DNA of 36,549 nucleotides. Source: a virus. The notes below the pieces were generated by a model. That model did no database searches, was not told the DNA's origin, and saw only the letters and a program-made list of their open reading frames with translations. Below, one piece after another: positions 12,862 through 34,931 of this stretch (positions are counted from its first letter, which is position 1; every line of letters starts with the position of its first letter). The position numbers and the translations under genes were made by a program. The stretch covers positions 1 through 36,549 of IMG/VR virus record IMGVR_UViG_3300022921_002274. The stretch is one strand, 5' to 3'.

Positions 12862-12866
12862 ATTTA

Positions 12867-14588: not shown

Positions 14589-15530
14589 ATGATTTCTACA
14601 AGGGACAAATTAAAAGTAATTAATGTACTTGATAGTACACTCGGTGTGGGTACCTCACTAAAGGGAAACGAACAGGCTCACCATTGTCCTTTTTGTCATC
14701 ATCACAAGAAAAAACTCCAAGTAAATTTAGAAACACAATACTGGCATTGTTGGGTGTGTAACTCTAAAGGTAGAAGTATTCAATCACTTCTTAAACGTTT
14801 ACACGTTGATTACTCTCAGATAAATGTAATCATTGGTATCTATGGTGACCATCCAACATCTACATCAAAAGATGTAGAAGAAAAGATACAACTTAGGTTA
14901 CCGTCGGAGTTCAAATCGTTATTACAAAAACCAAAATCAATCAATCCAATATACAACCAAGCACTTGCATACCTTAAACGAAGGGGTATCTCAATGGATG
15001 AAGTAAGTAAGTACAACATTGGATATTGTGAAGATGGTTTATATGGTGGTAGAATTATTATCCCATCATACGATGAAGATAACGAACTAAATTACTTTAT
15101 TGCAAGAACATTCTATGAGGATGTGGGAATGAAATATAAAAACCCACCTGTTAGTAGAGATGTTATTATATTTGATAATCAAATCAATTGGAATGAGCCA
15201 ATTACTTTAGTAGAGGGTGTGTTTGATTCATTCTCAGTAAAAAGAAACGCAATCCCAATGTTGAGTAAGTTTTTGCTATCAAAGTTAAAAACAAAGATAC
15301 TTGAAAGGGGTGTAACGGAAATCAACTTACTAATGGATTCAGATGCAGTAGAAGATTCTACCAAACATACTGAGTACTTTATTAAAAACGGAATCAAAGT
15401 AAGAAATATTATACCTCAAGGTGAATCCGATGCAGCAGATATGGGATTTGATAAGGTAAATGAATTATTAAAAGAAACCGAAGAAACGGGATGGGATAAT
15501 CTTATCCTTTCCAAATTAAATAATTTATGA
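14589..15530 (+). CDS. DNA primase, DnaG/T4 gp61-like
   Basis: This 314-residue primase synthesises RNA primers for lagging-strand replication. The N-terminal zinc site is C33-P-F-C36 and H53-C54-W-V-C57. The TOPRIM catalytic centre shows EGVFDSF (Glu near 209) and LLMDSDA (near 250), followed by an Ala-Asp motif in GESDAADMGFDKV. The domain order and size fit small T4 gp61-type primases; there is no fused helicase. The start at ATG 14589 is chosen over an in-frame TTG at 14580, because that TTG lies inside the promoter -7 box. The end overlaps the next gene by ATGA, so it is coupled to the Mre11-Rad50 gene. Production from its own promoter may be leaderless. Confidence 0.9.
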   Translation: MISTRDKLKVINVLDSTLGVGTSLKGNEQAHHCPFCHHHKKKLQVNLETQYWHCWVCNSKGRSIQSLLKRLHVDYSQINVIIGIYGDHPTSTSKDVEEKIQLRLPSEFKSLLQKPKSINPIYNQALAYLKRRGISMDEVSKYNIGYCEDGLYGGRIIIPSYDEDNELNYFIARTFYEDVGMKYKNPPVSRDVIIFDNQINWNEPITLVEGVFDSFSVKRNAIPMLSKFLLSKLKTKILERGVTEINLLMDSDAVEDSTKHTEYFIKNGIKVRNIIPQGESDAADMGFDKVNELLKETEETGWDNLILSKLNNL

Positions 15531-18500
15531 TAGTAGAAAAAATCTACCATTTAGCGGATTTACACATTCGTAACTTAAAAAGACACAAAGAATATCGTTC
15601 GGTATTTGAAAAGTTCTTAGAGAACGTAAAAAAAGATGATATTGAAAAATCAGTTATTTATCTTGCAGGTGATATTGCTCATGCTAAAACTGAGATGTCT
15701 CCTGAACTTGTTAGAGAAATCAGTTGGTTTTTAACTGAATGTGCAAAACTAAAACACACATTTTTAATCACGGGTAATCACGATTGTAATCTCAATAACG
15801 ATTATCGATTAGATGTATTAACACCAATCGTAGAAAATTTAAACAATGACAGAATACACTATTTACGAGATACTGGCACTTACAACTTTGGTAATCTCAC
15901 TTTTGTGGTTTATTCGATACTCGATAAAAAGGAGAATTGGCCAAAGGCAGAATTGGTAGAAGGTGAGAATAAAATTTGTTTATTCCACGGACCAGTAAAT
16001 AAAGCACAAACTGATGTAGGATACACCGTATCATCAAATTCATTTACAGTCGATATGTTCGATGGATTTGATATGGTGATGTTGGGTGATATCCACAAAC
16101 GTCAAACATTCGGTGAAGGTTATGAACACATTGCGTATGCAGGTTCAATGATTCAACAAAATCATGGAGAACTCCTCGAGAACCATGGTTACTTATTATG
16201 GGATGTAGAATCTCGTACCTTTGAAGAGTTCCATATTCATAACGATTATGGTTATTTAACCGTTGATGTAGTGGATGGGGAGATTCCTCAATGGGTTTAT
16301 GATGAAGTTGATACCAAACTACCAAAGTACCCACGTTTACGTCTTAGATTCACTCGTACTGAACCGAGTGATACAAAACGTTGTGTGACAAAACTTAAGA
16401 AACTCTTTAAGGTATCTGAAGTAACGGTAACTCGTACTGATACTATTGGACAACTTAAAACCAATCAAAATGTCAACAAGAATATTGTTGGTAACGTCAA
16501 AGATGAAACTTTCCAAAATCAACTGATTCGTGATTACTTGGAAAGACAGTTTTTGTTAGATGGTGATGAATTAGATAAGATTGCTGAAATTAATAAAGAG
16601 ATAAACTCTCAGGTTGATGATACTAAAGTTGCAGAGAATGTACTATGGGTACCAAAGACATTTGAGTTCTCTAATATGTTTTCCTATGGTGAAGGTAATA
16701 AAGTAAGATTCGATAATGCAAAAGGAATTATGGGAATCTTTGCTCCTAATGCTTCAGGTAAATCTTCACTTTTTGATGCACTCTCCTTTTGTATCTTTGA
16801 TAAATCATCACGTACCTTCCTTGCTAAGAATATTATGAACAATCGTAAGGATTGGTTCAAATGTAAGTTCCACTTCCAAATCAATGATATAGATTACTAC
16901 ATCGAACGAAGAGCAAAAACAGTCAGTAAAGGAAAGAGTGTTAAGGTTGATGTGGATTTCTGGTCTGAACAAGGTGGAGTGGTAACATCTCTTAACGGAG
17001 AACAACGTAGAGATACCAACCAGATGATTCAACAATACTTAGGTAGTTATGATGATTTCGTATTAACTGCACTATCTCTACAAGGAAACAATGCGTTGTT
17101 CATTGATAAATCCCAAACGGAAAGAAAAGAAATTCTTTCCCAATTTATTGGGGTGGATATCTTTGATAAATTGTATCAACGTGCGAATGAAGAGTTTAAA
17201 GATACTACTACACTCATCAAAAAATTCAAGAGGGATGATTTTACGACTAAACTTGCCGACATCGACACCCAATTAGTTGAGAAGAAAAACGAATATAAGT
17301 TACTGACAACTCAACACGAAGTACTCAAAGAAGAAGAGGAAACTTTAAATAAACAAATCATCTCATTGAACGAGAAGATTATTAAATTGAGTGCAGATAG
17401 TGGTAAATCAATTGATGAACTCGAAACTACTCACCAATCACTTATTGATAGAAAGAGTAAAATAATTGAACTTAGAGAATCTATTCAACAACGTATAAAT
17501 GAAAAGGAGGAGATTCAGATTAAGTTAGAGGAAAAAATTGATGGGTATGATGAAGATGATATCACAAAACGATATAAGGAATACACCGACCATGTTGAGG
17601 ATTTGAAACAACTTAATATTGAGTTGGATAAGATGAAGATTCGTGAGGATTCCTTAAAAGAAAGAATCGAACACGTTAAATCACATGAGTATAATCCTGA
17701 ATGTGAAATATGTTTAAAAAACTCTGAAGAGTATATCGATGCAAAAATGAGCTTACAATCTGAACTATCTATTCTTGTTGAGCAAATGGTTGAGATAAAC
17801 ACGAGTAAAGAATCGATAGAATCATCATTAGAAATTAATTCAGAAGTAAACCAACAATTTACTAATTTAAATAAACTCAAGGTAGAAGAAGATAAGATTG
17901 ATAGAGAAATATCAGGACTTATTAACAAGTTATCAACAACCGAAACTGAAGAATTACGTTTAGATGCACAAGTTACGGAGTATCAGAACTTAATCGATGA
18001 ATATTACAAGAACGAAAAAACTATTGAAAAGAATCGTGAGATTCGTGCTGAGATTAGTGAAGTTCGTAAAAAGTTAGATGGTATAAAGAAAGAAATTAAA
18101 ACTACTAACACCAATGTCCTTTCACTTAATGGTAAGGTATCATCACTTCAGAATCAGAAAGAAACTATCGAGGAAAGAATCAACGAGGTTAAAGATTTAG
18201 AAGAACAACATCGATTGTTTGAGTATTACCTGAACTCATTAGGTAAGGATGGTGTATCGTATGAATTGATTTCTAAGGCACTTCCAATGATTGAGGGAGA
18301 GGTAAACAACATCTTAACTCAAATCGTAGAGTTTGGAATGCAGTTGGAAATGGATGGAAAGAATATCAATGCATATATCGTATATGATGACCAAAAATGG
18401 TCTTTGGAGATGTGTAGTGGTATGGAAAGATTCATTAGTGGTCTTGCAATCAGAATTGCACTCATTAATGTATGTAACTTACCAAGACCAAACTTCTTGG

Positions 18501-18685
18501 TGGTAGATGAAGGATTTGGAACTTTGGATAATGAAAATTTGACATCATTATATATGTTGTTTTCATATCTAAAAACCCAATTCGATTTTGTAATGATTAT
18601 CTCACACATCGATTCTATGCGAGATGTGGTTGATTCATTACTCGAAGTTAAAAAAGTAAATGGATTCTCAAGTATTAAATTATGA
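15527..18685 (+). CDS. Fused Mre11-Rad50 (SbcD-SbcC / T4 gp47-gp46) DNA repair nuclease
   Basis: This single 1,052-residue chain contains both subunits of the recombination nuclease that resects DNA ends. Residues about 1-290 are the Mre11/SbcD phosphoesterase, with metal motifs DLHIR, GDIAHAK, GNHDCN, HGP and GDIHKRQ. A linker follows. The Rad50/SbcC ATPase then begins at about 375, with Walker A FAPNASGKSS near 405-414, long coiled-coil arms, a CxxC zinc hook at C726/C729, the ABC signature CSGMERFISGLAIRIAL near 963, and Walker B FLVVDEGFGTLD near 990. In T4 and most bacteria these are two genes. It is one uninterrupted frame with all key motifs present, so it should be active. ATGA overlaps join it to the primase and the dehydrogenase genes. 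Confidence 0.93.
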   Translation: MIVEKIYHLADLHIRNLKRHKEYRSVFEKFLENVKKDDIEKSVIYLAGDIAHAKTEMSPELVREISWFLTECAKLKHTFLITGNHDCNLNNDYRLDVLTPIVENLNNDRIHYLRDTGTYNFGNLTFVVYSILDKKENWPKAELVEGENKICLFHGPVNKAQTDVGYTVSSNSFTVDMFDGFDMVMLGDIHKRQTFGEGYEHIAYAGSMIQQNHGELLENHGYLLWDVESRTFEEFHIHNDYGYLTVDVVDGEIPQWVYDEVDTKLPKYPRLRLRFTRTEPSDTKRCVTKLKKLFKVSEVTVTRTDTIGQLKTNQNVNKNIVGNVKDETFQNQLIRDYLERQFLLDGDELDKIAEINKEINSQVDDTKVAENVLWVPKTFEFSNMFSYGEGNKVRFDNAKGIMGIFAPNASGKSSLFDALSFCIFDKSSRTFLAKNIMNNRKDWFKCKFHFQINDIDYYIERRAKTVSKGKSVKVDVDFWSEQGGVVTSLNGEQRRDTNQMIQQYLGSYDDFVLTALSLQGNNALFIDKSQTERKEILSQFIGVDIFDKLYQRANEEFKDTTTLIKKFKRDDFTTKLADIDTQLVEKKNEYKLLTTQHEVLKEEEETLNKQIISLNEKIIKLSADSGKSIDELETTHQSLIDRKSKIIELRESIQQRINEKEEIQIKLEEKIDGYDEDDITKRYKEYTDHVEDLKQLNIELDKMKIREDSLKERIEHVKSHEYNPECEICLKNSEEYIDAKMSLQSELSILVEQMVEINTSKESIESSLEINSEVNQQFTNLNKLKVEEDKIDREISGLINKLSTTETEELRLDAQVTEYQNLIDEYYKNEKTIEKNREIRAEISEVRKKLDGIKKEIKTTNTNVLSLNGKVSSLQNQKETIEERINEVKDLEEQHRLFEYYLNSLGKDGVSYELISKALPMIEGEVNNILTQIVEFGMQLEMDGKNINAYIVYDDQKWSLEMCSGMERFISGLAIRIALINVCNLPRPNFLVVDEGFGTLDNENLTSLYMLFSYLKTQFDFVMIISHIDSMRDVVDSLLEVKKVNGFSSIKL

Positions 18686-20139: not shown

Positions 20140-23100
20140 ATGGCAAGAATCAAGAAATATTCACCAAAGGAAAATTTAACTTCCTTTAATACTTTCGTCG
20201 TAGATACAGGAGATAATTCCGATTATTTCAGAATTACTGAATTTAAAAACACCTTTACTGGTGGTAAGAATGGATTCCTAATTGAAGGTTCTCCATATCT
20301 AAAAGAATCTACTGAGATTAAGATGGAAATTCTTGATGTCAATGGTGAACCTATTTATTACGAACCTGGTAATGGTATCCCTGAATACTACGAGGGAATA
20401 TCGAAATTGATTGCAGTTTATGTTTACAATGATACTCCAATTGGTACTGCAAAGATTACAATTCTTGGTGAGTTAAAAGAATATGTAGATGAAACGGGAA
20501 TTGTTAGACAAATTCCTGAAGAGTGGAGGGGTGTTTATAATGTTAAATGGGAGAAAGAATTTAAAGTAAATAAACTTCTTTCAAACGAAGATAGAGTAAG
20601 ATTCTATCGTAGACCACAGGTTAGTATCGATGAAATAGTTAAACCTATATTTAGTGGTAATCCACCAACAACCACTCAAACGGGGTCGGTTAATGGTCTT
20701 CCGTTAGTTCCAAACGAGAACGTAAATTTATCAAGTTTCACTTTACCTACATCGTATAGATTAAAAGTTGCAAGTGGTAGTGGTTGGACGGGTTCTATGG
20801 AGAATCAAGTTGTAACCTTTGACAACTTAAACTATTCTCCAAGAATTAATGAGGTAGTTAATGAAACTGAAATTATTGTATCACCTCCATATAGTGAAGG
20901 TAATCTTGTTAAATCATTTACGGATGAGGATTATTCTATTACATTCACTCATCTTGAAGGATTTAATGATTTAGCAACTGCTTTAACGGGTTCGTTTGCA
21001 AAGATTAAGATTACTGATATGAAAACCTTTGTGGGTGATGCTGCAAGGGTTAAAGTATTTAGACGTTCTCAATCAAACTTAACTGATTATGAGTTTGTAC
21101 AAGAAATACAATTGGAATCAAATGAGTTATTGAGAGATATTGAAACAGTTGCTAAGAGTGAGGAAACATATGGATTTTTCACCCAACCTGTATTGGATAC
21201 ATATTGGAATAAATCAGAACCTTTATTAACTGCATCGTTTAATCAAGATTTTTTATATAACTCCGTTAAGTTAGATGGTTCAACCGGTCAATACTTTTAT
21301 ACTACTCGAAGCTTCGATATTCAAGAAGGAGTAGAATATACTTTAGATTTAAATGTAAGAAAAGAAACTACAAACCCAAATCATTCCCTTAGAGTATTTT
21401 TAAGTGGGTCATATAATGGTAGTAGTAAAACTCAAGATATTACCACGATTAACTCATCAACTTTTATCTTACAAAAAACTAATTTTAATGAAAATATAGT
21501 TGCAGAGAATTTTGATTCCGCATCTCTTTATTTTGAACCAAGTGGTAGTGATTGGTATATCAATAACGTAAGTTTAAAAGCATCTCAGGAAACTTCATTT
21601 TCTCCTGATGAAATTACTTTTATTCAACAGGTACCTAAAACATTAGAAGCAGAAACGTTTGATTATCGTTTCGAGTTCTATGATATAAACAATAATTTTA
21701 TTCCTGTACGAGTTGAAGAATCTAAAACTTTTGTTGGTGGTAACTTAAACTTGTTTAGAAAAAGTATTGAGGTAACTCCTGATAACTTATATTTTGCATT
21801 TGATTCTGCATCAAATCCTGCTAACCCACTTCCACCAACTGTAATTAATTTTGATGTACAAACAAATGTAATTACAGGTTCAATAAATTATACATCAGGT
21901 GCATATGATTTCTTTGGAAATGAAATTTCATCGTCAGAATATGCAGGTGGACAATATCCTGGTTACTTAACCGATTGGAATGTGAGTAGTGGTAGATTTC
22001 CTTACTTAACAGTACAGGATTTCACAGGTTCACGTGATGATATTACCGTTCAATTTATTAGATATACCGCTGAAGTTGAGGGAGTATCTGATACATTTAT
22101 TATTACGAGAGTTGAGGATGGTAAGGGTGGTGTAAGTTTTGAGATTGTTCCATATCGTGGAACTATCATTAAAAACAAAGAAGATAAATCATTAGAAATA
22201 CAGGCAGTAAGAGTTGATGGTATAAATCGCATCGATTTACAGGATGGATTGACACGAAACTTTTCAGATGCAAAATTACATTTAGCATCGGCATCGTTTG
22301 ATGGAATAAATGAAGTAACTACCTACGTATCACTTTCACAAGCAATAACTAACCCCGATTTTGTTACGGGCATTTCTGCAGGTACAACAGGTAGTGGTCA
22401 GATAGACTATAATGCAGAATTTACAAGAGATGCAATCGATAATGAGTTGGTAGTTTATTTAATGGATGGACCAACTACCTCATCAATTTTAACATCTCTA
22501 ATTTTAACTGATTTAAAGGATGGTTTAAATAACGGTATAATTTCTTCATTGACAGACCAATTTAATATTAAATACATCCCAAGAGAACCCAGTAATTTTA
22601 ATCCAACATCAACTCCTGTAACTGCATCATTCCAAAGAAGGGGTACAACACTAAATCCTCTTTCTGCTAGTTTAGAAATAATTCCATCATCATCAATAGA
22701 ACCAAAAACAGAAATACCACATTTCTATATGTTCTATGTAACGGGTGCATTTGATGATACAATTACCGTTGCAGTAACTGATTACTTAGGAAACTCAATT
22801 GATAGCGGAGTACCTGGTGTTACTCCTGGTGTAGCATATTATGATGCAGTAGATACAAAACAATTAAATTTTGAATTTACTTATACCGAACCAATCACCT
22901 CGGCATCGGTAACTGCAAACAAATCATTCTTTATCACACCAGATGGATTACCTGGTAGAAATTCTATTAACATTGAAATAGAACCATCTCCTGTACAAAT
23001 TGGTGCAAATCACAAAGGAGATGTATATGATTATACAATAATAAATCCAACTATTGAAATTACTCAAGGTGATTTGTTCTTAATTCATACTGCAAGTGGA

Positions 23101-26100
23101 GACCCTGGTACATTCACAACATCTTCAGTAAATGGTATTGTACCAACGGGAATTACTTTTAGTGGGTCTGAAGGAGATACAAGTACATCCATGAGTTTAT
23201 ATGGATTTAGTAACATGACTGCATTAAGTGCAAGTGTAACTTATAACTTTGATATCTATCCGTACTTTACATCATCAATCGTAACTCAGAGTAAAGTTCA
23301 GCGATTTAATAAAGTAATTGAAGGTACTTCTGCAATTGAAGTAATTCTTGAACCGAGTACGATAAACTTTAATGCAGATGAATTAGGATATGTTTCACAA
23401 TATTCAGATGCTAATACTGAATTATCAGTTAGACAACAGGAAGAATATTTAGCATACGATGAAAGTAATTCAGGAACTCCCGGTACATATACTGCATCTT
23501 TAGTTGCAACTAATATTACCATCGGAGATTTATCATCATCTAATCAATATGGAGAAATTTCAGGAGATGATGTATTCCATGTTGATAACTTTAGTAATAT
23601 GTCTGCAACAACTGCATCAGTTGTTTACAATCTAACGGTTTATCCATACTCTTTGAAGAATGGGGTTGCAGGTGTACCAACTAATATTAAGAAGAAACAA
23701 ATATTTACAAGAACTTCTGATGGACCAGCAGCAAGAAAAGTAAACCTACTTGCATCATCCAACACGGTAGTTTACAATGGAGATGGAACTCAAGTATCAC
23801 CTGAAGGTAATATTACTTTAACTGCAAATGCAATTAATACAACGGGTTCTGCCTATTTTGAGTTCTTGTACTCCGATGATTCAACTTTACAAGCATCTTC
23901 TACATTTAATGAAGCAACACTTGGTTCATCGGATTTACCAAACACGGGTTCTCAAAGTACCTTTAAGGTAAACCTAAGAGATGGGTCATCTAACGGAGCT
24001 ATTGTAGATACTGATTCGGTAACAATTACAGGTATTCAGGAGGGTTCAAACGCTTTTACAGTTCAACTTTCCAATCCATCAACAACCGTAGGTGTAGAAG
24101 TTGATGGTACAACTTACTTTGAAAATAGTACTACTGAAATTCGTGCATATAAAGGTGGAAACGAATTACAATTTGTAGAAACGTATGATGAGGAAGCATT
24201 AGACCCAATTACGTTCTTACCAATTGGTACGGAAGGTCAGTTTTCAGCATCTATATTTGAAATCTCACCAGCTCTAACACACGTATCAGGTAATATTGTA
24301 TCTCAATCGAATGAATTATATGGTGTATCTGCAGGAGTTAGTAATTGGAATACTCCATCTGCTAATACAACGGGATATATTATATTTAAAATTGATTTCG
24401 AAAATGGTAGAGCAACTCAATATGTACAACAATCATTTTCAACAGTATTTGAAGGAGCCGTTGGACCGGGTATTGTAGTAAGAGGTGAATGGACAGGTTC
24501 TCTTGATTACTTATATACTCCTCAAAGAAGAGATGTTGTAATTTATCGATATGATAATATGGGTACTGAGGAAACTCATTTCTTTGCAACAACGGATACA
24601 TTAGTAACTGCATCAGGACAACCACCATACACATTTGAACCTATCTACACACCAGGAATGTCAGAAGGTACATATGATACAAACAATTGGGAGTACTTAG
24701 GTGAACAAGATTTCTTCGTTGCAGCTAAGATAGCAATCTTTGAAGAATCATTTGTTGAAAATACTATTAACGTAGGTATTCCACAAGCAGGTGATGGTCA
24801 AAACGCAAACATCGCAATTGTTGGTGGTACTGATGAACCATTTATCTCAATAGGACAAAATGGAACTCAAGGTTATGCACAACCTGGTGTATTCTTAGGA
24901 TTAACACGTGATGGTGGACCATTAGGCGGTTCAGGTACAAGTGGGTTGTTATCAGTAGCAAGTGGAACCGATGGACAAGGTAGGTATAACTCATTAGAAT
25001 GGAATGGTGAAACACTTACGATTAGAGGTGCAATTAGACAAACTTCGGCGGGTATTGTAGAAGCTTCTTTACGAGGATTGTGGGAAGAAAGTGTAATCTA
25101 CTATCCTGATGATATTGTATCAAACGAAGGTCAAAGTTGGTTAATGGATGGTGAACCTCATACATCATCCCTTTCACACGAACCTGGTGTTGGTGCAAGT
25201 TATGCAGAATCATGGTCATTAAACATACCATCAGGTTCTTCTGCACAAACAATGAGATTATCTACGGATTCTCAAACCTTTAGAGTTGCTAAAGATGGAA
25301 CGGTAACACCAACTACTATCACTCTTACGGCAAATAGAGAAAACATTCAAGATGCTACTACATTCTCTACAACTCCACCTGGCATAACTTTGGGTGGTAG
25401 TGGAGATACTGCAACTTTATCATATACCAATTTTAGTAATAGTGGAGCAAATAAATCAGTAAAAGTTACTGCAACTGCAGGAGCATTTTCTGATGAGATT
25501 ACAATTGTAGAATTAGAAGAAGGTGCTGATGCATTAACTATAATCCTTACAAACGAAACACACACACTCCCAGCAGATTCAGCGGGTGTGGTTTCATCTT
25601 ATGATGGTAGTGGTACTACTATACAACTTTTTGAAGGAACATCATCTTTAGATTATGATGGAGTTGGTACATCTGCAGGTACTTGGAAGGTAACTGCAAA
25701 TGGTACAAACATAGCACCTGGTTCTATTTCTGAATCAGGGTTTGATGTAATCTTTGCTGACCATAGTAATATGACGGCTGATTCCGCATCGATTGAATAT
25801 ACTATTACAGGTAAACGAAAAAATTCAAATGAAATAACTGCAAGTAAAATTCAATCATTTACTAAAGCAAAAACAGGTGCAGATGGTTTAGCTGGACAAG
25901 CAGCAGGTGTAACATACGCAGGTAGTTGGACACCCACCGCAGATATAACCACGTATGAAGATGGGGTAACTTACATGGGAGAAGATACTCTAAAATACGT
26001 GGTTAAGTATGGTAGTGATTATTATGTCTGTGCAACATCTCACACTTATCGAGGAGTTTATGATTCGGGTACTACCTATCAATCTGAAGATGCAGCTAGT

Positions 26101-29100
26101 ACATACGTTCCTGATGTAGTACGATATCTCGGAGTTTATTACAAAGTAAAAGCAGGACAAGGACCTGTAACAAGTGTAACTCCATCGGTATCATCACCAG
26201 GAAATGTATATTGGGACCAAATTGGTGGTAGCATAACGCCAGGAACTTGGACAGATGGTTGGGAAGCGTTTGGAGCTCAATTCACTTCGGTAGCAACTGA
26301 TATTCTTTTTGCAGAAGATGTTTACGCAAATCGAACTATTAACATTGGTACTGATGATACTAATAAACCGGTAATTGCAATCAATGCAGATTCTGCATCG
26401 GGATATCAAAACCCATTTATCTCAATTGGTCAAGGTAATTCGCCAGGATTTGAAAATGATGGTATTTTCTTAGGATATTCTGATACATCTGCATCATTAT
26501 CAGTTTTAAGTGATGTTGGTGCAAAAATAAACATTGGTGGATTAAAGGTTGATAAACAGGGAATGTATTATGAAGGCGATAGGGTCATTGGCCAAACTAC
26601 TACTTCTAATACTACAATCGGTATTGCTAATGATGGAACTTCAAACTTTACCTTTGAACAGGCAATGATTGGTGGAACGTTAGCAGCATCGGGATTGGTT
26701 ACCCAGCGAATTAATGATTATGTCGATACTACAACATTAACAGGTAACTCTGCTCAGTATAATCCAGGTATTTCACAATGGAGTTTAAGTTACATATCGG
26801 GTGCATATGAAATGCCAACAGGTGGTCCTGCTACTAAAACTAATGGTATTCCATATGAACTTCATGGATGGAGAGATGACCCCCTTGAAGCACCTGAAGC
26901 AGCTGCAAATGAAACTTGGTTTGTTGATTGGACAATTGATAAAAATTTAGTATTAACAGGGTATCAATTAACATATGCAGCACCCAGTGTTGCGTATTAT
27001 GCTCTTCAATTAAGAACGGGTACCATTTCTTCGGAGTTCGGTATTACGGATAACGATATTAATGCATTAAAAGAAGACCAAACTTATCTTCCATTCCCTG
27101 CAGCAGGTGGTAGTACGGATGTAGATGGTGATTCTTTTTATTCCCCAACGGGAAGTTTTCCGATTTTATATATAGAATCATCGGAAGATGCTGACCAAAA
27201 TTACTCATGGGCAAATAGTGCAAGAGTAGGATATCAAGTTCTTGATGTGGTAAATAGTACTACTGTTGGTTCTACAACGGGATATGATACTTTTATTTTA
27301 GGGAGTAGGATAGATGAAACGGGTACTTTTGCAGATGATTTCCAAACATTTGAAAGTACTTATGGAGTAACTGCTGCATCAAATGGTACTGCACCCTCTG
27401 GTGCAAACCCAAGTATTGCAGAATCTTTATTTAGAAATATTCAATTAGTTTGGGTAGACCCTGTGGTGATTACTAATACAAGTACGGGTGGTGGTGTTCT
27501 TTCGATGGGTTCTTTAGATGATGTTACCGAACTAAGTGAGTTTATGAGATTACACTCATCGGGTTCAAACGGTAGTTCTCTTCCTTACCTATCAATGGGA
27601 CAGTTAACCCAAAGTTTTGATGAAGAGGGTATCTTCTTAGGATTTATTTCAGGTTCCGATGATGGACTATTATCTCTAAAAAGTAATACTAACGCTCTTC
27701 TTTGGGATGGTGGTACGTTAACTATTAACGGAACAATAAACGGTGGTGGTTTACGAGAAGGTGCAACTCTTGAAGGTTCTGCTATCTTTGTACCATCACA
27801 AACTTCACCATCATTCTCAGTTGATACTGAAGGTAATGTAACCGCAGAATCTGCAACTATTCGAGGTACAATTCAAGCAACCGATGGTAATATCGGTGAT
27901 TGGGTAATTGATGCGAATGACCAAACACTTAGAGATGATAACTATGAAATTATCTTTGACCCAAATATTCCTGAGGTAGGATTATATACTGAAGCATCTA
28001 AAACGGTTCGATTAGCACCAACAGGTGGATTGACATCGGTTACATCAACTGGTGCATCGTTTACGGGATTACCATCAACACCACCAACCCCATCAACTGC
28101 AACTTCAAATGCTAGTAGTACAGCTACGGTATACACAAGTGCTACATCAGCTGAGAGTAATGCTACAAGTGTTGGGGATATACCAGATGGAACGTATCCA
28201 ATAGCGTTTACCCTACCTTCGGTGACCTTATTCAGTTCAGGAATGACAGATACCGATACTACAACCCTTCCTCCAAATTACTCAGGAACCGCAGAAGGTC
28301 AGATACATGGTGCACCATTTTCTGGCAGAGGTTACAGAACTTATATTTTATATGTAGGACTTGGATATGAAGATACGGGTGTGTATATATTTGATGATGC
28401 ATATAGACAGTTTTTATTTTCAATAACAGCATATTCAGGGTATGAATTAAATGATGTGTATGTGTGGAGTACCAATCCGTTATCGGTAACGGGTGATACG
28501 CCAATTCAATTAGCAGATGGTTCTACTAAATTAGCAGAAAATATTGATGGTGATGATTGGTTATTAGTTTGGGATGAAAAAAATGATAAATTAGTTCCAT
28601 CTCAAATTGGAGCTAAAATGGAAAGACAGGTTGATGGTTATTTCTTGGTTGAAACTGATACGGAAAGTATCAAGGTATCCGACTCTCACGCTTTCTATTT
28701 AGAGGGTAACATTGAAAAACCTGTACAAGAATTAATTGCAGGAACTGATAAAATCTTCGTATATAAAAATAATAAACTAACAAAAGAAACAGTAAGAAGG
28801 GTAGAAAAAATAAACTCAACCGAAAATGTATATACCTTTACAATTCCAAATTACGAAAACTATATTTCTGCAAATATCCTATCTCACAACCCTATTGCTG
28901 GGAATTGGGAGCCTTCACTAGAGTATCAGGATTTTCCTAAAGGTGATGGTACTAAATCAAGTAATACTATTGTTAGAAACTTTACCTTTGATAAAGGTTC
29001 TTCTGCAACGGGTTATAAGTTGAGATGGGAAGTAAGATTGGGAGCAAGGTCTGGATTAAGTTATGATACCGATGCAAGTGGAAATACATCAAATACTTAT

Positions 29101-29712
29101 TTCCAACAAACTACATCTACATCTAATGTATCATCTTATTCTTTACCCACATCTGCAACTGTTGATATACCATCAAACATTACCGAAATTACAGGTAAAG
29201 GTATTCAAGTACTTTCTGGTGCAAATGAATATGTAAGAATTGAAAGAAGTAACTTTAATAAAAAGTTAATACAAACGGCAGGTGGTGATTTTATCTTTGG
29301 TTCTGAAGATGCAGGTCAAACTACTGAGTATGGAATAGAACCTGGATTAGATAGTACTCATGTACTTGGTAGTACAACTAAAAGATGGAAAGACATTTGG
29401 ATAGATGCAATAAATGGTACAACTCTTTCATCATCCACGTCTACTTCTGGTTATATGAGAGTAATTGGTGATATACTAATACAATGGGTAAGAGCAACAG
29501 GAACTTCTCAGTTTACTAACACTTGGCCAACACCATTTGATACGGTTTATGGGGCAACTGTAAGTAAAGGTAATCCGAATACTACATATCAAACCGATAA
29601 TAATACGGTAAATGTTTCTTACACAAATTCAAATTACTATGTGGATACAAATGAGAGTAATTCAAGAACTGTATTCATTATAGCAATTGGAACTAAATCA
29701 GCAGCAATTTAA
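20140..29712 (+). CDS. Giant tail fibre protein with Hint domain and gp53-like tip
   Basis: This 3,190-residue protein is the likely receptor-binding tail fibre. The N-terminal 170 residues (from MARIKKYSPKENLTSFNTFV) form a domain probably docking to the baseplate. Next come many beta-rich, Ig-like modules, including repeated ones near residues 941, 1061 and 1794, each ending in a motif like FSNMTALSASVTYN. Three shaft modules carry PFISIGQ-type motifs near 1567, 2093 and 2483, each followed by G(V/I)FLG. Trp/Tyr-rich segments near 1448, 1646 and 1928-2010 resemble CBM5/12-type carbohydrate-binding modules. GNIGDWVID near 2583 is a common fibre motif. A Hint domain covers 2782-2917. The last 85 residues, from GDILIQWVRATG, resemble the gp53-like fibre C-terminal domain. 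The chaperone gene follows 6 bases later. Confidence 0.88.
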   Translation: MARIKKYSPKENLTSFNTFVVDTGDNSDYFRITEFKNTFTGGKNGFLIEGSPYLKESTEIKMEILDVNGEPIYYEPGNGIPEYYEGISKLIAVYVYNDTPIGTAKITILGELKEYVDETGIVRQIPEEWRGVYNVKWEKEFKVNKLLSNEDRVRFYRRPQVSIDEIVKPIFSGNPPTTTQTGSVNGLPLVPNENVNLSSFTLPTSYRLKVASGSGWTGSMENQVVTFDNLNYSPRINEVVNETEIIVSPPYSEGNLVKSFTDEDYSITFTHLEGFNDLATALTGSFAKIKITDMKTFVGDAARVKVFRRSQSNLTDYEFVQEIQLESNELLRDIETVAKSEETYGFFTQPVLDTYWNKSEPLLTASFNQDFLYNSVKLDGSTGQYFYTTRSFDIQEGVEYTLDLNVRKETTNPNHSLRVFLSGSYNGSSKTQDITTINSSTFILQKTNFNENIVAENFDSASLYFEPSGSDWYINNVSLKASQETSFSPDEITFIQQVPKTLEAETFDYRFEFYDINNNFIPVRVEESKTFVGGNLNLFRKSIEVTPDNLYFAFDSASNPANPLPPTVINFDVQTNVITGSINYTSGAYDFFGNEISSSEYAGGQYPGYLTDWNVSSGRFPYLTVQDFTGSRDDITVQFIRYTAEVEGVSDTFIITRVEDGKGGVSFEIVPYRGTIIKNKEDKSLEIQAVRVDGINRIDLQDGLTRNFSDAKLHLASASFDGINEVTTYVSLSQAITNPDFVTGISAGTTGSGQIDYNAEFTRDAIDNELVVYLMDGPTTSSILTSLILTDLKDGLNNGIISSLTDQFNIKYIPREPSNFNPTSTPVTASFQRRGTTLNPLSASLEIIPSSSIEPKTEIPHFYMFYVTGAFDDTITVAVTDYLGNSIDSGVPGVTPGVAYYDAVDTKQLNFEFTYTEPITSASVTANKSFFITPDGLPGRNSINIEIEPSPVQIGANHKGDVYDYTIINPTIEITQGDLFLIHTASGDPGTFTTSSVNGIVPTGITFSGSEGDTSTSMSLYGFSNMTALSASVTYNFDIYPYFTSSIVTQSKVQRFNKVIEGTSAIEVILEPSTINFNADELGYVSQYSDANTELSVRQQEEYLAYDESNSGTPGTYTASLVATNITIGDLSSSNQYGEISGDDVFHVDNFSNMSATTASVVYNLTVYPYSLKNGVAGVPTNIKKKQIFTRTSDGPAARKVNLLASSNTVVYNGDGTQVSPEGNITLTANAINTTGSAYFEFLYSDDSTLQASSTFNEATLGSSDLPNTGSQSTFKVNLRDGSSNGAIVDTDSVTITGIQEGSNAFTVQLSNPSTTVGVEVDGTTYFENSTTEIRAYKGGNELQFVETYDEEALDPITFLPIGTEGQFSASIFEISPALTHVSGNIVSQSNELYGVSAGVSNWNTPSANTTGYIIFKIDFENGRATQYVQQSFSTVFEGAVGPGIVVRGEWTGSLDYLYTPQRRDVVIYRYDNMGTEETHFFATTDTLVTASGQPPYTFEPIYTPGMSEGTYDTNNWEYLGEQDFFVAAKIAIFEESFVENTINVGIPQAGDGQNANIAIVGGTDEPFISIGQNGTQGYAQPGVFLGLTRDGGPLGGSGTSGLLSVASGTDGQGRYNSLEWNGETLTIRGAIRQTSAGIVEASLRGLWEESVIYYPDDIVSNEGQSWLMDGEPHTSSLSHEPGVGASYAESWSLNIPSGSSAQTMRLSTDSQTFRVAKDGTVTPTTITLTANRENIQDATTFSTTPPGITLGGSGDTATLSYTNFSNSGANKSVKVTATAGAFSDEITIVELEEGADALTIILTNETHTLPADSAGVVSSYDGSGTTIQLFEGTSSLDYDGVGTSAGTWKVTANGTNIAPGSISESGFDVIFADHSNMTADSASIEYTITGKRKNSNEITASKIQSFTKAKTGADGLAGQAAGVTYAGSWTPTADITTYEDGVTYMGEDTLKYVVKYGSDYYVCATSHTYRGVYDSGTTYQSEDAASTYVPDVVRYLGVYYKVKAGQGPVTSVTPSVSSPGNVYWDQIGGSITPGTWTDGWEAFGAQFTSVATDILFAEDVYANRTINIGTDDTNKPVIAINADSASGYQNPFISIGQGNSPGFENDGIFLGYSDTSASLSVLSDVGAKINIGGLKVDKQGMYYEGDRVIGQTTTSNTTIGIANDGTSNFTFEQAMIGGTLAASGLVTQRINDYVDTTTLTGNSAQYNPGISQWSLSYISGAYEMPTGGPATKTNGIPYELHGWRDDPLEAPEAAANETWFVDWTIDKNLVLTGYQLTYAAPSVAYYALQLRTGTISSEFGITDNDINALKEDQTYLPFPAAGGSTDVDGDSFYSPTGSFPILYIESSEDADQNYSWANSARVGYQVLDVVNSTTVGSTTGYDTFILGSRIDETGTFADDFQTFESTYGVTAASNGTAPSGANPSIAESLFRNIQLVWVDPVVITNTSTGGGVLSMGSLDDVTELSEFMRLHSSGSNGSSLPYLSMGQLTQSFDEEGIFLGFISGSDDGLLSLKSNTNALLWDGGTLTINGTINGGGLREGATLEGSAIFVPSQTSPSFSVDTEGNVTAESATIRGTIQATDGNIGDWVIDANDQTLRDDNYEIIFDPNIPEVGLYTEASKTVRLAPTGGLTSVTSTGASFTGLPSTPPTPSTATSNASSTATVYTSATSAESNATSVGDIPDGTYPIAFTLPSVTLFSSGMTDTDTTTLPPNYSGTAEGQIHGAPFSGRGYRTYILYVGLGYEDTGVYIFDDAYRQFLFSITAYSGYELNDVYVWSTNPLSVTGDTPIQLADGSTKLAENIDGDDWLLVWDEKNDKLVPSQIGAKMERQVDGYFLVETDTESIKVSDSHAFYLEGNIEKPVQELIAGTDKIFVYKNNKLTKETVRRVEKINSTENVYTFTIPNYENYISANILSHNPIAGNWEPSLEYQDFPKGDGTKSSNTIVRNFTFDKGSSATGYKLRWEVRLGARSGLSYDTDASGNTSNTYFQQTTSTSNVSSYSLPTSATVDIPSNITEITGKGIQVLSGANEYVRIERSNFNKKLIQTAGGDFIFGSEDAGQTTEYGIEPGLDSTHVLGSTTKRWKDIWIDAINGTTLSSSTSTSGYMRVIGDILIQWVRATGTSQFTNTWPTPFDTVYGATVSKGNPNTTYQTDNNTVNVSYTNSNYYVDTNESNSRTVFIIAIGTKSAAI
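28483..28890 (+). other. Hint (intein-like) domain inside the tail fibre
   Basis: Residues 2782-2917 (136 residues) form a mini-Hint domain with no endonuclease. Block A is SVTGDTPIQLADGSTKLAEN, with Ser2782 where inteins have Cys or Ser. Block B is VSDSHAFYL, keeping the S-x-x-H pattern. Blocks F/G are VYTFTIPNYENYISANILSHN with the terminal His2916-Asn2917 (shown here as two motifs: VYTFTIPNYENYI and SANILSHN). The residue after Asn is Pro2918, not Cys, Ser or Thr, so normal splicing looks blocked. Cleavage at either end, as in bacterial intein-like domains, is the likely activity. Confidence 0.85.
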
Positions 29713-29718
29713 TAAACT

Positions 29719-30099
29719 ATGAGTGATATACGATATTTTGCAAATTACGATAGTGGTAGTGGACACATTAATGGATTTTATCCAACGGATTTATATCCAA
29801 ATAGTGGTTCTATACCAACTCCAAATATAGAAATTACTTTCGATGAGTGGCAAACTGCAATTAGTAGTTTACATATCATTTCCGATGGTGTACTGACTCC
29901 GTATGTTAAAACAAATGAGGAAGAACTTAATTCTATTAGAAGACAAAGGGATAGGTTATTACAAGAATCCGATTGGGTAGTTTTACCCTATTCACCCATA
30001 ACAGGTTCTAAATTAGATGAGTGGGTTCAGTATAGACAAGATTTAAGAGATATAACCACACAAACACCTCCTTATGTGTTACCAACTCAACCAGAATAA
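29719..30099 (+). CDS. Tail fibre assembly chaperone (Phage_tail_APC-like)
   Basis: This 126-residue protein ends with a well-known fibre-assembly chaperone pattern: IRRQRDRLLQESDWVVLPYS, then LDEWVQYRQDLRDITTQ, then VLPTQPE. These proteins help phage fibre tips fold or trimerise and are not part of the finished fibre in most cases. The N-terminal 60 residues (IRYFANYDSGSGHINGFYPT) resemble the variable part that contacts the cognate fibre. It starts 6 bases after the giant fibre stop with no promoter between them, so the two are co-transcribed. This pairing strongly supports the fibre call for its neighbour. Confidence 0.85.
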   Translation: MSDIRYFANYDSGSGHINGFYPTDLYPNSGSIPTPNIEITFDEWQTAISSLHIISDGVLTPYVKTNEEELNSIRRQRDRLLQESDWVVLPYSPITGSKLDEWVQYRQDLRDITTQTPPYVLPTQPE

Positions 30100-30479: not shown

Positions 30480-32663
30480 ATGATAAAGAAAAAACTACTT
30501 TATGTAGCATCTCACCTTTCTACGGGTGGAATGCCACAATATCTCCTTAAACAAATTCAAACTTTCAAAGATGAGTTTGATATTAGTGTGGTTGAATATA
30601 ACGACCATTCAGGAGATGCGTTTGTGGTTCAAAAAAATCAAATCAAAGATTTAGTAGACTTATACACACTTTATGAAGATAAAGAGGATAATTTTTTAGA
30701 TGTCTTTAATCGTATATCTCCTGATATTGTTCACTTCACCGAAATCCCCGAACATTTTATATCACCTGTTGCTTTAGATGAAATTTTTGGTAACAAAAAA
30801 AGAAAATACGATATCGTATGTTCTACTCACGGTTCCTTCACAAATCCTGATGAGATTAGATATCAACCTGATAGATACATTTTAGTATCGGAATGGAGTA
30901 GACAAAAATTTGAACATTTAGGAGTTGATACTCAAGTGTGGGAATATCCAATCGAAGATATTAAGTATGATAACGATAAATCCAAAGAAGAACTTGGGTT
31001 TGAAAAAGATTGGAAACACGTGTTAATGGTAGGTTTGTTTTCAGAAGGCAAAAATCAGAGTGAAATATTTGATGTAGCTAGATTATTACAAAAGTATAAA
31101 ATTAAATTCCACTTTGTAGGAAATCAAGCTATGAACTTTGAAGATTATTGGAAACCTTTGATGGATTCAAAACCCGAAAATTGTATTATATGGGGAGAAA
31201 GAACCGATACTGATAAGTTCTACAAAGCATCTGATTTGTTCTACTTTAGTTCAAAGTTGGAACTGAATCCACTTTCAATCAAAGAAGCACTTTCATATGG
31301 ATTACCATCGATATTCAGAAGATTACACACTTATTTAGATACATACGATACTACTGAATTGGTAACTTATATTGATGATAATATTTACAATACTAAAAAT
31401 TTATTATTAGAAAAATTACAACCTGAATTTAACGAAATTCCTGGTTGGTTTTCATATGAAAAATTATATGATGATGTGGTAGATAAATTACCAAATCACT
31501 CTAATATTGTGGAAGTTGGTTCTTGGTTTGGTAAATCAACAAATTATCTGGCAACAAAAATCAAAGAAAGTGGTAAGAAAATAAACTTTACTACAATCGA
31601 TACTTTTAAAGGTTCATTAGATGAAGAATTTCATAGAAAAACCATGGAAGTTTTTGATAATGATATCTATACCGAATTTATGGATAGTACCATTATGTTA
31701 GATAATCAAAATACTATAAATGTAATCAAAGATTCATCAATAAATTCAGCTGGATATTTTTTAAATAACTCTTTAGATTTTGTAATGATAGATGCAGGAC
31801 ATTCTTATGAAGATGTAATGGATGATATAAATGCTTGGTTTTATAAAGTAAAGCCAGGTGGTATTATTGCTGGTGATGATATTGTTACTGATTTTCCTGG
31901 AGTTATAAAAGCTGTAAAAGAATACTTTTATGGTCAGATTGAAAGAACCAATAATAAGTTTAAAAGTAATTGGTTTAGAAAAAGACCTCGTATTCAAATC
32001 ATTCATATGATGACAAGACCCGATGATGCAAGGGAAGTTATTTCTCAAAAATCATTAAAACAATTACAACGATTAGGATTTGATTACAAACCTATGGTAA
32101 ATGAAGTATATGAGGGGTTACCACCAAAGGAGTTTTGTAGAAGACCCGATGATATTTCAGATAAACCAATTTTTAAAGGTGACCAAGGTATTGGAAATAT
32201 TACCGGTAGACATTATGGTTGTTACTTGGCACATATAAACGCATTAAAAGAGATTGATACTAAAAACTATGATTACACACTTATCTTTGAAGCAGATGCA
32301 TTTATCTACTCCAATTTAAGAGATTTCGCTGATGTTGTTTATAAAGCATGTTTTATATCAGAAAGAGATGATGTTCCTTATATTGGTTTTGCTGATAACC
32401 CATCTTGGACTCGATGGGAAGTTGATGAAACATTTAGAAAGACCGATTATAATCAAGATTGGGCCCATGCGTATTTAATACCAAATAGAGAGAAACAATG
32501 GTATATGGATAGAATCGAGGATTGTGAGTGGGATGTTGCTGATTTATGGTACAATCATGTATTTTATCATCATAGACGATTAAGATATACAACAAATTAC
32601 CCCTTCTCAAAACAAGCCGAAGGGTTATCACTGTTAGATAACACAAATAAAAGTTGGAAATGA
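30480..32663 (+). CDS. Three-domain protein: GT4 glycosyltransferase, methyltransferase, GT25-like glycosyltransferase
   Basis: This 727-residue protein joins three enzymes. Residues 1-310 are a GT-B fold, family GT4-like transferase: ASHLSTGGMPQYLL near the start, then VGLFSEGKNQSEIFDVARLL, and the acidic pair E261 and E269 in ELNPLSIKEALSYGLP. Residues about 315-490 are a class I SAM-dependent methyltransferase of the Methyltransf_24 type: VEVGSWFGKSTNYLA (from V344), FVMIDAGHSYEDV and KPGGIIAGDDI. Residues about 500-727 resemble a GT25-type (LPS/collagen-like) GT-A transferase: IIHMMTRPDDA, then YGCYLAHINALKEI and the acidic motif IFEADAFIY (E604-A-D). It is the first gene of the cassette and likely builds and methylates a glycan. 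Its substrates are not shown by sequence. The stop overlaps the next ATG. Confidence 0.82.
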   Translation: MIKKKLLYVASHLSTGGMPQYLLKQIQTFKDEFDISVVEYNDHSGDAFVVQKNQIKDLVDLYTLYEDKEDNFLDVFNRISPDIVHFTEIPEHFISPVALDEIFGNKKRKYDIVCSTHGSFTNPDEIRYQPDRYILVSEWSRQKFEHLGVDTQVWEYPIEDIKYDNDKSKEELGFEKDWKHVLMVGLFSEGKNQSEIFDVARLLQKYKIKFHFVGNQAMNFEDYWKPLMDSKPENCIIWGERTDTDKFYKASDLFYFSSKLELNPLSIKEALSYGLPSIFRRLHTYLDTYDTTELVTYIDDNIYNTKNLLLEKLQPEFNEIPGWFSYEKLYDDVVDKLPNHSNIVEVGSWFGKSTNYLATKIKESGKKINFTTIDTFKGSLDEEFHRKTMEVFDNDIYTEFMDSTIMLDNQNTINVIKDSSINSAGYFLNNSLDFVMIDAGHSYEDVMDDINAWFYKVKPGGIIAGDDIVTDFPGVIKAVKEYFYGQIERTNNKFKSNWFRKRPRIQIIHMMTRPDDAREVISQKSLKQLQRLGFDYKPMVNEVYEGLPPKEFCRRPDDISDKPIFKGDQGIGNITGRHYGCYLAHINALKEIDTKNYDYTLIFEADAFIYSNLRDFADVVYKACFISERDDVPYIGFADNPSWTRWEVDETFRKTDYNQDWAHAYLIPNREKQWYMDRIEDCEWDVADLWYNHVFYHHRRLRYTTNYPFSKQAEGLSLLDNTNKSWK

Positions 32664-33802
32664 TTTACGGAAATATAAAAAGAAATTCAAATAATATTGT
32701 AGATATAAAAAATAAAATTTTAATTTCATACGTCCGCGGACCACGAATTGAAATATTGGGTAGTATCGATACTACATATAAAGTTGAGTTCATTGATAAA
32801 AAAGATAATAGTATTAAATTTCAAACTGAAATAAAAAATAATCATTGGGCAAAATCCAATTATGAATATTTTATTGATTGGAAAGTTCGTGTTTGGGAAA
32901 ATAATGTTCTTCTTCATGAGGAAGAGTTTAATGCAAAAGGAAAAAGAGTGTACATCGCAATGGATTCAAAGGCAATCGGTGATACCCTCGCATGGGTTCC
33001 TTACTTCGAAGAATTTAAGAAAACACATGATTGTGAATTGATAGTATCTACATTTCACAATGATTTATTTAAAGACCAATATCCTGATTTTGAGTTTGTA
33101 AATCCCGGTGATATTGTTAATAATCTTTATGCAATGTATTCACTTGGGTTATTTTACAACGAAGATGGTTCAGTAAATTTATATAAAAATCCTTCAGACC
33201 CAAAAACAGTTTCAATGCAACAAATGGCAACTGATATTCTTGGATTAGAATACAAAGAAATAAGACCAAGATTACCTAAGAAGAATGTTAAAAAAGATGA
33301 TAAGTTAATTACTATTGCAATTCACGGTACTGCACAACCAAAATATTGGAATAACCCAACGGGATGGCAAGATGTAGTTGATTGGTTAAATGAAAAAGGA
33401 TATACCGTTAAATTACTTTCAAAAGAAGATACGGGTTATATGGGTAATGACCACCCAACAGGAATTATAAAACATCCCGAAGGGCCGTTAGAATCCGTAA
33501 TGGATGAGATGAGAAAATCAAAAGCATTTATTGGTATTGGTAGTGGATTAAGTTGGTTAAGTTGGGGATTAGGAACTAAGACTGTTCTTATAAGTGGATT
33601 CTCATACGATTGGGCAGAGATGCAAGATTGCATAAGAATATCAGCACCAAATGATATGTGTAGTGGTTGTTTTAATCGACTAAAGTTAGATGCTGGTGAT
33701 TGGAATTGGTGTCCTGACCACAAAGATACAAATAGACAATTTGAATGTACTAAATCAATTACTAGTGAAATGGTGATTAAAGAATTAAAAAAGTTTTTGT
33801 AA
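32660..33802 (+). CDS. Protein O-heptosyltransferase, Aah/TibC (BAHT) family
   Basis: This 380-residue enzyme matches the bacterial autotransporter heptosyltransferases, which transfer heptose from ADP-heptose to Ser residues of proteins. An N-terminal beta domain (about 1-90) is followed by a GT-B core with VYIAMDSKAIGDTLAWVPYF and IAIHGTAQPKYWN, then the family signature GIGSGLSWLSWGLGTKTVLI and SGFS. A C-terminal metal site has C334-x2-C337, C351 in DWNWCPDHK and C363 in RQFECTKSI. Known members bind iron with four Cys there. The start is ATG 32660, in an ATGA overlap with the previous stop; an in-frame TTG at 32654 is less likely. The two next genes make the donor sugar, supporting the call. 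The natural acceptor is unknown. Confidence 0.88.
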   Translation: MIYGNIKRNSNNIVDIKNKILISYVRGPRIEILGSIDTTYKVEFIDKKDNSIKFQTEIKNNHWAKSNYEYFIDWKVRVWENNVLLHEEEFNAKGKRVYIAMDSKAIGDTLAWVPYFEEFKKTHDCELIVSTFHNDLFKDQYPDFEFVNPGDIVNNLYAMYSLGLFYNEDGSVNLYKNPSDPKTVSMQQMATDILGLEYKEIRPRLPKKNVKKDDKLITIAIHGTAQPKYWNNPTGWQDVVDWLNEKGYTVKLLSKEDTGYMGNDHPTGIIKHPEGPLESVMDEMRKSKAFIGIGSGLSWLSWGLGTKTVLISGFSYDWAEMQDCIRISAPNDMCSGCFNRLKLDAGDWNWCPDHKDTNRQFECTKSITSEMVIKELKKFL

Positions 33803-34186
33803 ATGAAAGTTTGGATTAATGGATGTTTTGACGTTCTTCATCATGGGCACTTTAAATTGATTGATTATGCAAAATCATTCGGGGGACAGTTAAAAATCGG
33901 AATCGATTCGGATAGGAGGGTAAAAGAATCAAAGGGAGATAGTAGACCCTTCCATAATCAGAATCAGAGAATATTTAATTTACTTCAAATTGATGGAGTA
34001 ACTGATATTGTAGTTTTTGATTCAGATAAAGAACTCTCAGATGCAATAAAGAAATATCAACCTGATATTTTCGTAATCGGTGAAGAGTATAGAGACAAAG
34101 GAATCATTGGTAGAAGACATGCTAAACAAATAGAATACTTCCCAAAGGTAGAAGGATTTTCAACAACAGGATTATTAGATGAGTAA
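33803..34186 (+). CDS. hldC: Heptose-1-phosphate adenylyltransferase (HldE C-terminal-type domain)
   Basis: This 127-residue nucleotidyltransferase corresponds to the C-terminal half of HldE (RfaE domain II), which makes ADP-heptose from heptose-1-phosphate and ATP. It has the HxGH motif in GCFDVLHHGH (7-16), KGDSRP at 44-49 (specific to HldE-type members), QRIFNLLQIDGVTDIVVF, PDIFVIGEEY and the C-terminal FSTTGLL (STT at 120-122). TagD-like glycerol-3-phosphate cytidylyltransferases share the fold, but KGDSRP and the STT end favour HldE. It starts directly after the heptosyltransferase stop and overlaps the kinase gene by 8 bases. In E. coli the two activities are one protein in the opposite order. 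Confidence 0.87.
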   Translation: MKVWINGCFDVLHHGHFKLIDYAKSFGGQLKIGIDSDRRVKESKGDSRPFHNQNQRIFNLLQIDGVTDIVVFDSDKELSDAIKKYQPDIFVIGEEYRDKGIIGRRHAKQIEYFPKVEGFSTTGLLDE

Positions 34187-34931
34187 AGTATTGGTAATAG
34201 GAGAAGCATGTACTGATATCTTCATTTATGGAGATACACCTCGTCTTTCACCCGAAGGACCTGCTCCTGTTTTTATTCCAAGGAGAGAAGTTTATAATGG
34301 TGGAATGGGTATGAATGTAGTGGATAATTTGGTGGCACTAAACATTGATGTAGATTTTCATCACCAACTATCTCCAATCACAAAAACAAGACACATTCAC
34401 GAACCATCTAATACTCTATTGTTGAGAATTGATGAAGAGGAAAATATTGATAATGTAGGTGATAGATTACCTAAAATAGATTTTTGGGAATATCAAATGA
34501 TTGTAGTTTCTGATTACAACAAAGGATTCCTAACCGAAGAAGATATAGCATATATCGGATTCAAACATCCAAATGTAATTTGTGATACAAAGAAAAAATT
34601 GGGTGAGTGGTGTAAGGATTTACGATTTATAAAACTTAATCGTTCTGAATTCGAAAATAATAAAGAATTTATCGAAAAAAACGATTGGATTTTAGAAAAG
34701 TTAATAATTACATTAGACAAGGATGGGTGTATGTACAAAGGTACATCATATCCAACCGAAAGAGTAGAGATTATGGATATCTCAGGAGCTGGAGATACTT
34801 TTGTAGCAGGATTTGTAAAAGAGTTCTTAGATACTGAAGATGTTCCAAAATCAATACAATTCGGAAATCGTTGTTCAGCACAAGTAGTACAAAAAAGAGG
34901 TGTAACAACAATAGATTACGAAAATTTATAA
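34179..34931 (+). CDS. hldA: PfkB-family heptose-7-phosphate kinase (HldE N-terminal-type domain)
   Basis: This 250-residue kinase corresponds to the N-terminal half of HldE, which phosphorylates heptose-7-phosphate at C1. It has GEACTDIFIYGDTPRLSPEG near the start (HldE has GD...RISPEAPVP), YNGGMGMNVVDNLVAL (sugar site), LLLRIDEEE, VVSDYNKGFL (HldE: LSDYAKGAL), and the catalytic DISGAGDTFVAGFV anion-hole motif with its Asp. At about 250 residues it is shorter than the usual 315-residue domain; the loss is mostly in the middle. It overlaps the adenylyltransferase gene. Other PfkB sugar kinases are possible, but RLSPE plus the neighbour make HldA the best call. No gmhA, gmhB or hldD gene is in the window. 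Confidence 0.85.
   Translation: MSKVLVIGEACTDIFIYGDTPRLSPEGPAPVFIPRREVYNGGMGMNVVDNLVALNIDVDFHHQLSPITKTRHIHEPSNTLLLRIDEEENIDNVGDRLPKIDFWEYQMIVVSDYNKGFLTEEDIAYIGFKHPNVICDTKKKLGEWCKDLRFIKLNRSEFENNKEFIEKNDWILEKLIITLDKDGCMYKGTSYPTERVEIMDISGAGDTFVAGFVKEFLDTEDVPKSIQFGNRCSAQVVQKRGVTTIDYENL

Follow-up and report, generated by a model that had tools for sequence, protein, structure and literature searches.

The tail fibre encoded in the window (the whole stretch of 36,549 nucleotides analysed here) contains a genuine and complete mini-Hint domain, recognised beyond chance, at residues 2782-2917 (136 aa; 28483-28890, plus strand). The domain is an insert in a loop of the beta-rich knob domain that precedes the fibre tip, and this knob domain is uninterrupted in Hint-less relatives. 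It is predicted, with a probability of about 55%, to be a self-processing Hint acting like the A-type BIL domains. The family of such fibres has fixed catalytic residues and a variable residue at +1, and this is the pattern seen in A-type BILs.

The window is one IMG/VR contig and covers a phage tail region. The fibre gene is a single ORF for a giant protein of 3190 aa (20140-29712, plus strand), and its N-terminal ~200 aa is conserved in 166 IMG/VR relatives found by a scan. Ser and Thr make up 22% of the fibre. There is one Cys among the 3190 residues, which fits Ser as the nucleophile. The next gene (29719-30099, plus strand) encodes a tail fibre assembly protein (PHROG 4912 / 188, E = 2e-13).

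Blocks A (with Ser1), B (SDSH), F, and G (ending in His-Asn) are observed in the Hint sequence, SVTGDTPIQLADGSTKLAENI...VSDSHAFYLEG...VYTFTIPNYENYISANILSHN, which is followed by Pro. The candidate N-terminal nucleophile Ser1 is Ser2782 (TCG, 28483-28485), and Ser is found at this position in all eight distinct fibres with the domain. Block B corresponds to residues 2847-2850 (28678-28689) with the catalytic-type His2850, the terminal His-Asn to residues 2916-2917 (28885-28890), and the +1 residue to Pro2918 (28891-28893), all on the plus strand. The fibre continues for 273 residues after Asn2917. The original prediction had described a complete mini-Hint with these same residues; all of its coordinates match, and the profile and the predicted fold agree with it. 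Block F is VYTF. It has Thr where inteins often have Asp (VYD), and this position is variable across the family. No homing endonuclease is present. The domain has no Cys and starts with Ser1; thus it does not belong to the class 3 inteins, which have the WCT motif and no N-terminal nucleophile.

The Pfam model Intein_splicing (PF14890) matched the domain with E = 2.9e-7 and 30.9 bits, under the curated cut-off of 35.8. The profile built from the eight fibre Hints has 137 positions, of which 2-136 align with inteins and BIL domains of solved structure. The E values were 5.5e-10 for the Spl DnaX mini-intein, 4.5e-8 for Tetrahymena thermophila BIL2, 9e-8 for the NpuDnaB intein, and 1.1e-5 for the C. 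thermocellum BIL. With AlphaFold2, the single sequence of residues 2677-3038 gave a pLDDT of 30. The model from a 12-sequence alignment of the Hint and its flanks has a pLDDT of mostly 80-95 in the Hint part and about 55-75 in the knob halves. A predicted structure lacking a Hint fold would, by the original prediction, have refuted it; the Hint fold is there. The closest PDB structure is the Ssp DnaB intein (Z 21.8, 1.6 A over 137 residues), with BIL2 (Z 21.5), the C. thermocellum BIL (19.8), and Hedgehog autoprocessing domains (19.6) as further matches. Foldseek with the same model also returned the Hint fold, with BIL2 among the closest folds.

The Hint was originally placed between the shaft and the tip of the fibre. 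It instead interrupts a knob domain located ahead of the tip. The N-terminal half of the knob (28171-28482, plus strand, start approximate) consists of beta strands in the AlphaFold2 model, with moderate confidence. The C-terminal half (28891-29253, plus strand, end approximate) closes with the anchor EITGKGIQVLSGANEYVRIERS, which is common with Hint-less relatives; the conserved form of the anchor is ...EI..GGIQVVS.... The Hint was removed by a script, and the two flanks were joined and aligned to Hint-less fibres. The joined flanks of L082 align unbroken to L091 (32% identity over 355 columns, E = 1e-27). Those of L061 align to L062 (E = 5e-17) and L052 (E = 2e-13) with no break at the junction, and those of the window fibre align across the junction to L052 (E = 3e-10). 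Several Hint copies have a Gly-rich linker ahead of Ser1. Other domains vary as well among the fibre knobs.

The scan of IMG/VR with the N-terminus of the window fibre gathered 166 relatives, from which 80 loci were kept. The 72 complete fibres were grouped by their last 700 aa into 50 clusters. The Hint is carried by 15 fibres in eight clusters, always at the same place: the window fibre, L050 (with L049), L058, L059, L060, L061 (with L053-L056), L082, and L085 (with L077 and L078). The remaining 42 clusters have no Hint, which answers the suggestion in the original prediction to look for related fibres lacking the domain. The other seven Hints are 34-44% identical to the window copy. Twenty columns are invariant in the alignment of the eight, including S1, T6, G13, S66, H69, S134, H135, and N136. 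The +1 residues are P, S, V, A, F, P, P, and I. The nucleophile is thus missing in seven of eight, the exception being the Ser of L082, and the residue preceding position 1 is equally free. Because the fibres are rich in Ser and Thr, one Ser at +1 among eight copies is what is expected without selection for a nucleophile. Pro at +1 as the mark of a dead or unusual intein was ruled out, since +1 is free across the family.

In the same pairs of fibres, the Hints are 35-79% identical and the flanks 17-42%, that is, the Hints reside in variable regions of non-conserved proteins, as do A-type BILs. Block composition, Hint fold, an N-terminal Cys or Ser nucleophile, His-Asn, and free +1 are likewise all as in A-type BILs. 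B-type BILs, in which block G or His-Asn is missing, do not correspond to these domains, all eight of which have His-Asn. Ser1, the block B His, His-Asn, and the fold are also features of class 1 inteins, but Pro2918 takes the place of the Cys, Ser, or Thr at +1. The original prediction that Pro at +1 blocks ordinary splicing extends beyond the window: like A-type BILs, the window copy and six of its seven homologues have no splicing nucleophile at this position. They are expected to cleave, or to ligate by a route that does not use a +1 side chain, instead of undergoing class 1 splicing. L082, with Ser at +1, could splice normally.

Relatives of the Hint are difficult to find with single sequences. 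Searches of IMG/VR and 50,697 phage records with the window Hint returned no relative or weak intein matches. The flank preceding the Hint alone and the first, mixed Hint alignment likewise returned nothing beyond weak matches in these searches. The Hints are too divergent for single-sequence searches. A scan of genome contigs by short exact patterns, which can miss cellular relatives, returned one archaeal locus at 27% identity. The synonymous-divergence profile between L058 and L059 may reflect module exchange, but it is a patchy mosaic. dN/dS is near saturation in most fibre pairs.

The gp53-like C-terminal tip (29473-29691, plus strand), named in the original prediction, is below the cut-off in the window fibre itself (PF21882, E = 1e-3), but is clear in three Hint-bearing relatives, L060, L061, and L085 (E about 1e-12). 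A scan for relatives based on the tip gave a short match alone. The window fibre does not have a Peptidase_S74 tip. With a strict threshold, S74-type chaperone tips were called in 34 of the 50 clusters, and none of these 34 has a Hint. The other clusters comprise eight with a Hint and another tip and eight with neither, one of which is possibly a truncated ORF. The exclusion gives a Fisher p of 2.4e-5, uncorrected for kinship. In the tree of fibre N-termini, six Hint fibres and the Hint-less L052 constitute one supported group, while L082 and L085 are placed among S74 fibres. At least four changes are needed on this tree, which offers only three independent contrasts. The mutual exclusion of Hint and S74 tip is therefore only suggestive. 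Replacement of the S74 chaperone by the Hint is not claimed, given these three contrasts and the seven or eight non-S74 clusters that have neither. L085 sits next to L061 on the Hint tree (bootstrap 96, SH-aLRT 73), yet the two are widely separated on the fibre tree. They share Pro at +1 and an unambiguous gp53-like tip, and their distal cassette looks as if it had been transferred.

Hints are also observed on other tail proteins. In related phages (L020-L038), a tail protein terminates in a Hint of a second lineage (Cys1...THN). In L025 and L026, at about 4001-4705, this C-terminal Cys1 Hint is directly followed by a Peptidase_S74-like chaperone stretch, so that two different types of self-processing module stand in series. 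The window has a Hint-less homologue of these proteins, a 422-aa tail protein (2937-4205, plus strand) that is 34% identical to L020 in its N-terminal part (E = 2e-48). No Hint of this C-terminal Cys1 type is present in the window, including in this copy. A third lineage is C-terminal in collagen-like or large tail proteins of Erwinia, Dickeya, Yersinia, Alcaligenes, Salmonella, and NCTB phages. The Erwinia Hint is matched by 55 phage records. In phage NCTB (L134:1198-3179 and L029:1569-5483), Hints are found in three genes of one tail cluster, one of which is nearly a Hint alone (153 aa). In these separate Cys1...HN lineages, at or near the C-termini of tail proteins, +1 is variable. In L127 (1201-2460, reverse strand) the Hint is internal (Cys1...HN|Lys), a fibronectin-like stretch comes after it, and the gene adjoins a tail-sheath-like gene. 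A tail-region protein of L044 (23496-24794) has a C-terminal Hint with Gln for the block B His (SASQPIF), while Cys1 and HN are kept. Some GenBank records note "contains intein domain" for tail proteins.

On the Hint tree, the fibre Hints, the tail-protein Hints, and the collagen/NCTB Hints form three separate supported clades. This points to a repeated origin or spread of Hints among phage tail proteins. The fibre Hints are placed, with weak support, beside true inteins of a portal-type ORF of 1386 aa from a related megaphage, a 484-kb uncultured phage (LR756508.1; L133:13264-17424). This ORF, whose gene identity is read from sequence, contains three intein/Hint regions; where the +1 residue could be read, it is Ser or Thr. 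The adjoining ORF (11401-13182) also has an intein-like region.

Other genes of the window deserve a short description. Its large baseplate-type protein is similar to proteins of Flavobacterium phage immuto, Microcystis phage Mel-JY01, and the uncultured 484-kb phage. The ORF at 15527-18685 combines a calcineurin-like phosphoesterase and an AAA_23/SMC-type ATPase, that is, SbcD and SbcC fused in one protein. Their counterparts in T4, gp47 and gp46, are separate proteins. A phage-encoded S-adenosylmethionine synthetase with all three Pfam domains is present at 13585-14550. A SegE-type GIY-YIG homing endonuclease gene (12867-13280) lies between tail genes on one side and metabolic genes on the other. 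Repeats coding for (IGRSGSG)n are observed at 5424-5616, close to the C-terminus of the ORF at 4205-5623. Past the fibre genes, 30480-34931 contains genes for a glycosyltransferase/methyltransferase, a heptosyltransferase-like protein, a cytidylyltransferase, and a PfkB kinase. This run resembles a sugar-nucleotide (HldE-like) pathway.

A-type BILs have His-Asn and lack the nucleophile at +1. They form an N-terminal (thio)ester and cyclise Asn, and they mostly cleave, but can splice via the freed amine (PMC4031507; PMC7664689). A similar reaction may be proposed for the fibre Hint. After folding, the peptide bond between Leu2781 and Ser2782 would move to the Ser side chain and become an ester through an N-O acyl shift, with His2850 assisting. 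Asn2917 would cyclise, assisted by His2916, and the amino end of Pro2918 would be freed. Pro at +1 may make Asn cyclisation slow. Since there is no nucleophile at +1, the steps would not be coupled into class 1 splicing, and single or double cleavage is predicted to be dominant, perhaps with some ligation in which the freed amine attacks the ester. Such uncoupled cleavage would nick the knob during or after fibre folding, as a maturation step. Because the Hint is inside a loop of the knob, cleavage at its two ends would leave nicks in a folded domain without necessarily freeing the tip; the two halves probably stay together. In the mature fibre, the tip would be held non-covalently or re-joined. 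The portal-type inteins, which keep Ser or Thr at +1 where the fibre Hints do not, support this cleaving reaction by contrast, and the unrelated Cys1...HN clades with variable +1 on other tail proteins support it by recurrence. As a counterpoint, the sequence affinity appears to be to inteins over the one bacterial BIL of known structure (DnaX mini-intein, E = 5.5e-10; C. thermocellum BIL, 1.1e-5), in a comparison that included few BIL sequences. The Thr in block F, the possible slowing of Asn cyclisation by Pro, and the +1 Ser of L082 also weigh against it.

The same ester could be used for acyl transfer, where a nucleophilic group (amine or hydroxyl) on a second fibre chain, a different virion protein, or the host surface attacks the Ser1 ester or freed fibre C-terminus and a covalent cross-link results. 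The ester-forming residues are invariant while the +1 acceptor is not kept, the Hint is in an exposed distal part of a fibre that is probably trimeric, and BIL2, among the closest folds, couples to lysines of other substrates through isopeptide bonds (PMC8616854). This outcome is nevertheless unlikely, as no conserved acceptor is known, no Lys is present within 100 residues upstream of the window Hint, and the terminal His-Asn would be superfluous for acyl transfer alone. In addition, amines attack esters less readily than they attack thioesters. That the fibre Hint is a chemical coupler, passing the knob Ser ester to an amine or hydroxyl of a neighbouring chain, virion part, or host surface, is decidedly doubtful; if it were the case, fibres would be covalently welded or covalently attached to the host.

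Two further explanations were considered. As a mini-intein, the Hint may splice well enough, through the freed amine or, in L082, the +1 Ser, to restore the knob and be tolerated as a guest that does nothing for the fibre. The nearest profile matches are inteins, the portal inteins are weakly supported neighbours on the tree, the Hint-less fibres look like a ligated knob, and the distribution is patchy, with the four or more changes mentioned above. But the +1 nucleophile is missing in seven of eight copies, the homing endonuclease is absent, and the site is a variable loop where typical inteins occupy a conserved motif, so that we consider a guest unlikely. The Hint fold may also be catalytically silent and be kept as a structural element alone, whether as a spacer, for folding, or for receptor binding. 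Its confinement to fibres that have no S74 folding chaperone, and the variation of other knob domains, are consistent with such a role. It would, however, be unexpected that exactly the catalytic S1, H69, H135, and N136 are invariant in highly diverged copies. The retention of all catalytic residues in eight such copies argues against loss of activity, and a silent domain is quite improbable. Self-processing like that of A-type BILs is the preferred reading.

Intein-type domains are mostly found in replication enzymes, and BILs in secreted bacterial proteins. A conserved Hint family in the receptor-side knob of a fibre, together with the other Hint lineages on tail proteins, points to recurring self-processing or covalent chemistry in tail maturation, and the modelling of such fibres would be affected. 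The family is also a possible source of mini-Hints of natural origin that begin with Ser1 and in which the +1 residue can be freely chosen. A search of the open-access PMC literature found no paper that describes Hint domains in tail fibres.

The fibre Hints are like A-type BIL domains in Hint fold, N-terminal nucleophile, terminal His-Asn, lack of a fixed +1, and variable host proteins (PMC4031507, PMC7765530, PMC5874633). They differ in having Ser1 in all eight copies, in their host protein, a phage tail fibre, and in a profile that matches mini-inteins better than the C. thermocellum BIL. Due to this sequence affinity and the Ser start, membership in the A-type BILs is not asserted. Class 1 mini-inteins such as Spl DnaX and Ssp DnaB are alike in full-length fold, motifs, size (about 136 aa), and lack of an endonuclease. 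Unlike them, seven of eight fibre Hints have no Cys, Ser, or Thr at +1, and the host site is a variable structural domain, not a conserved catalytic motif. BIL2 of Tetrahymena BUBL1 has a similar fold (Z 21.5) and makes isopeptide bonds with other substrates (PMC8616854), but it is encoded in a eukaryotic polyubiquitin locus, starts with Cys1, and is zinc-dependent. Virion proteins of Erwinia and Yersinia jumbo phages and phage NCTB also have a Hint (Cys1, HN), and no functional study of them was found in the literature search. These Hints form a separate clade and are not internal but at the very C-terminus, with roughly 2-12 residues after HN in the copies read. Peptidase_S74 tips are likewise self-processing and distal in the same fibre family. 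They are C-terminal chaperones of unrelated fold and chemistry, and among the 50 clusters they never occur together with the Hint.
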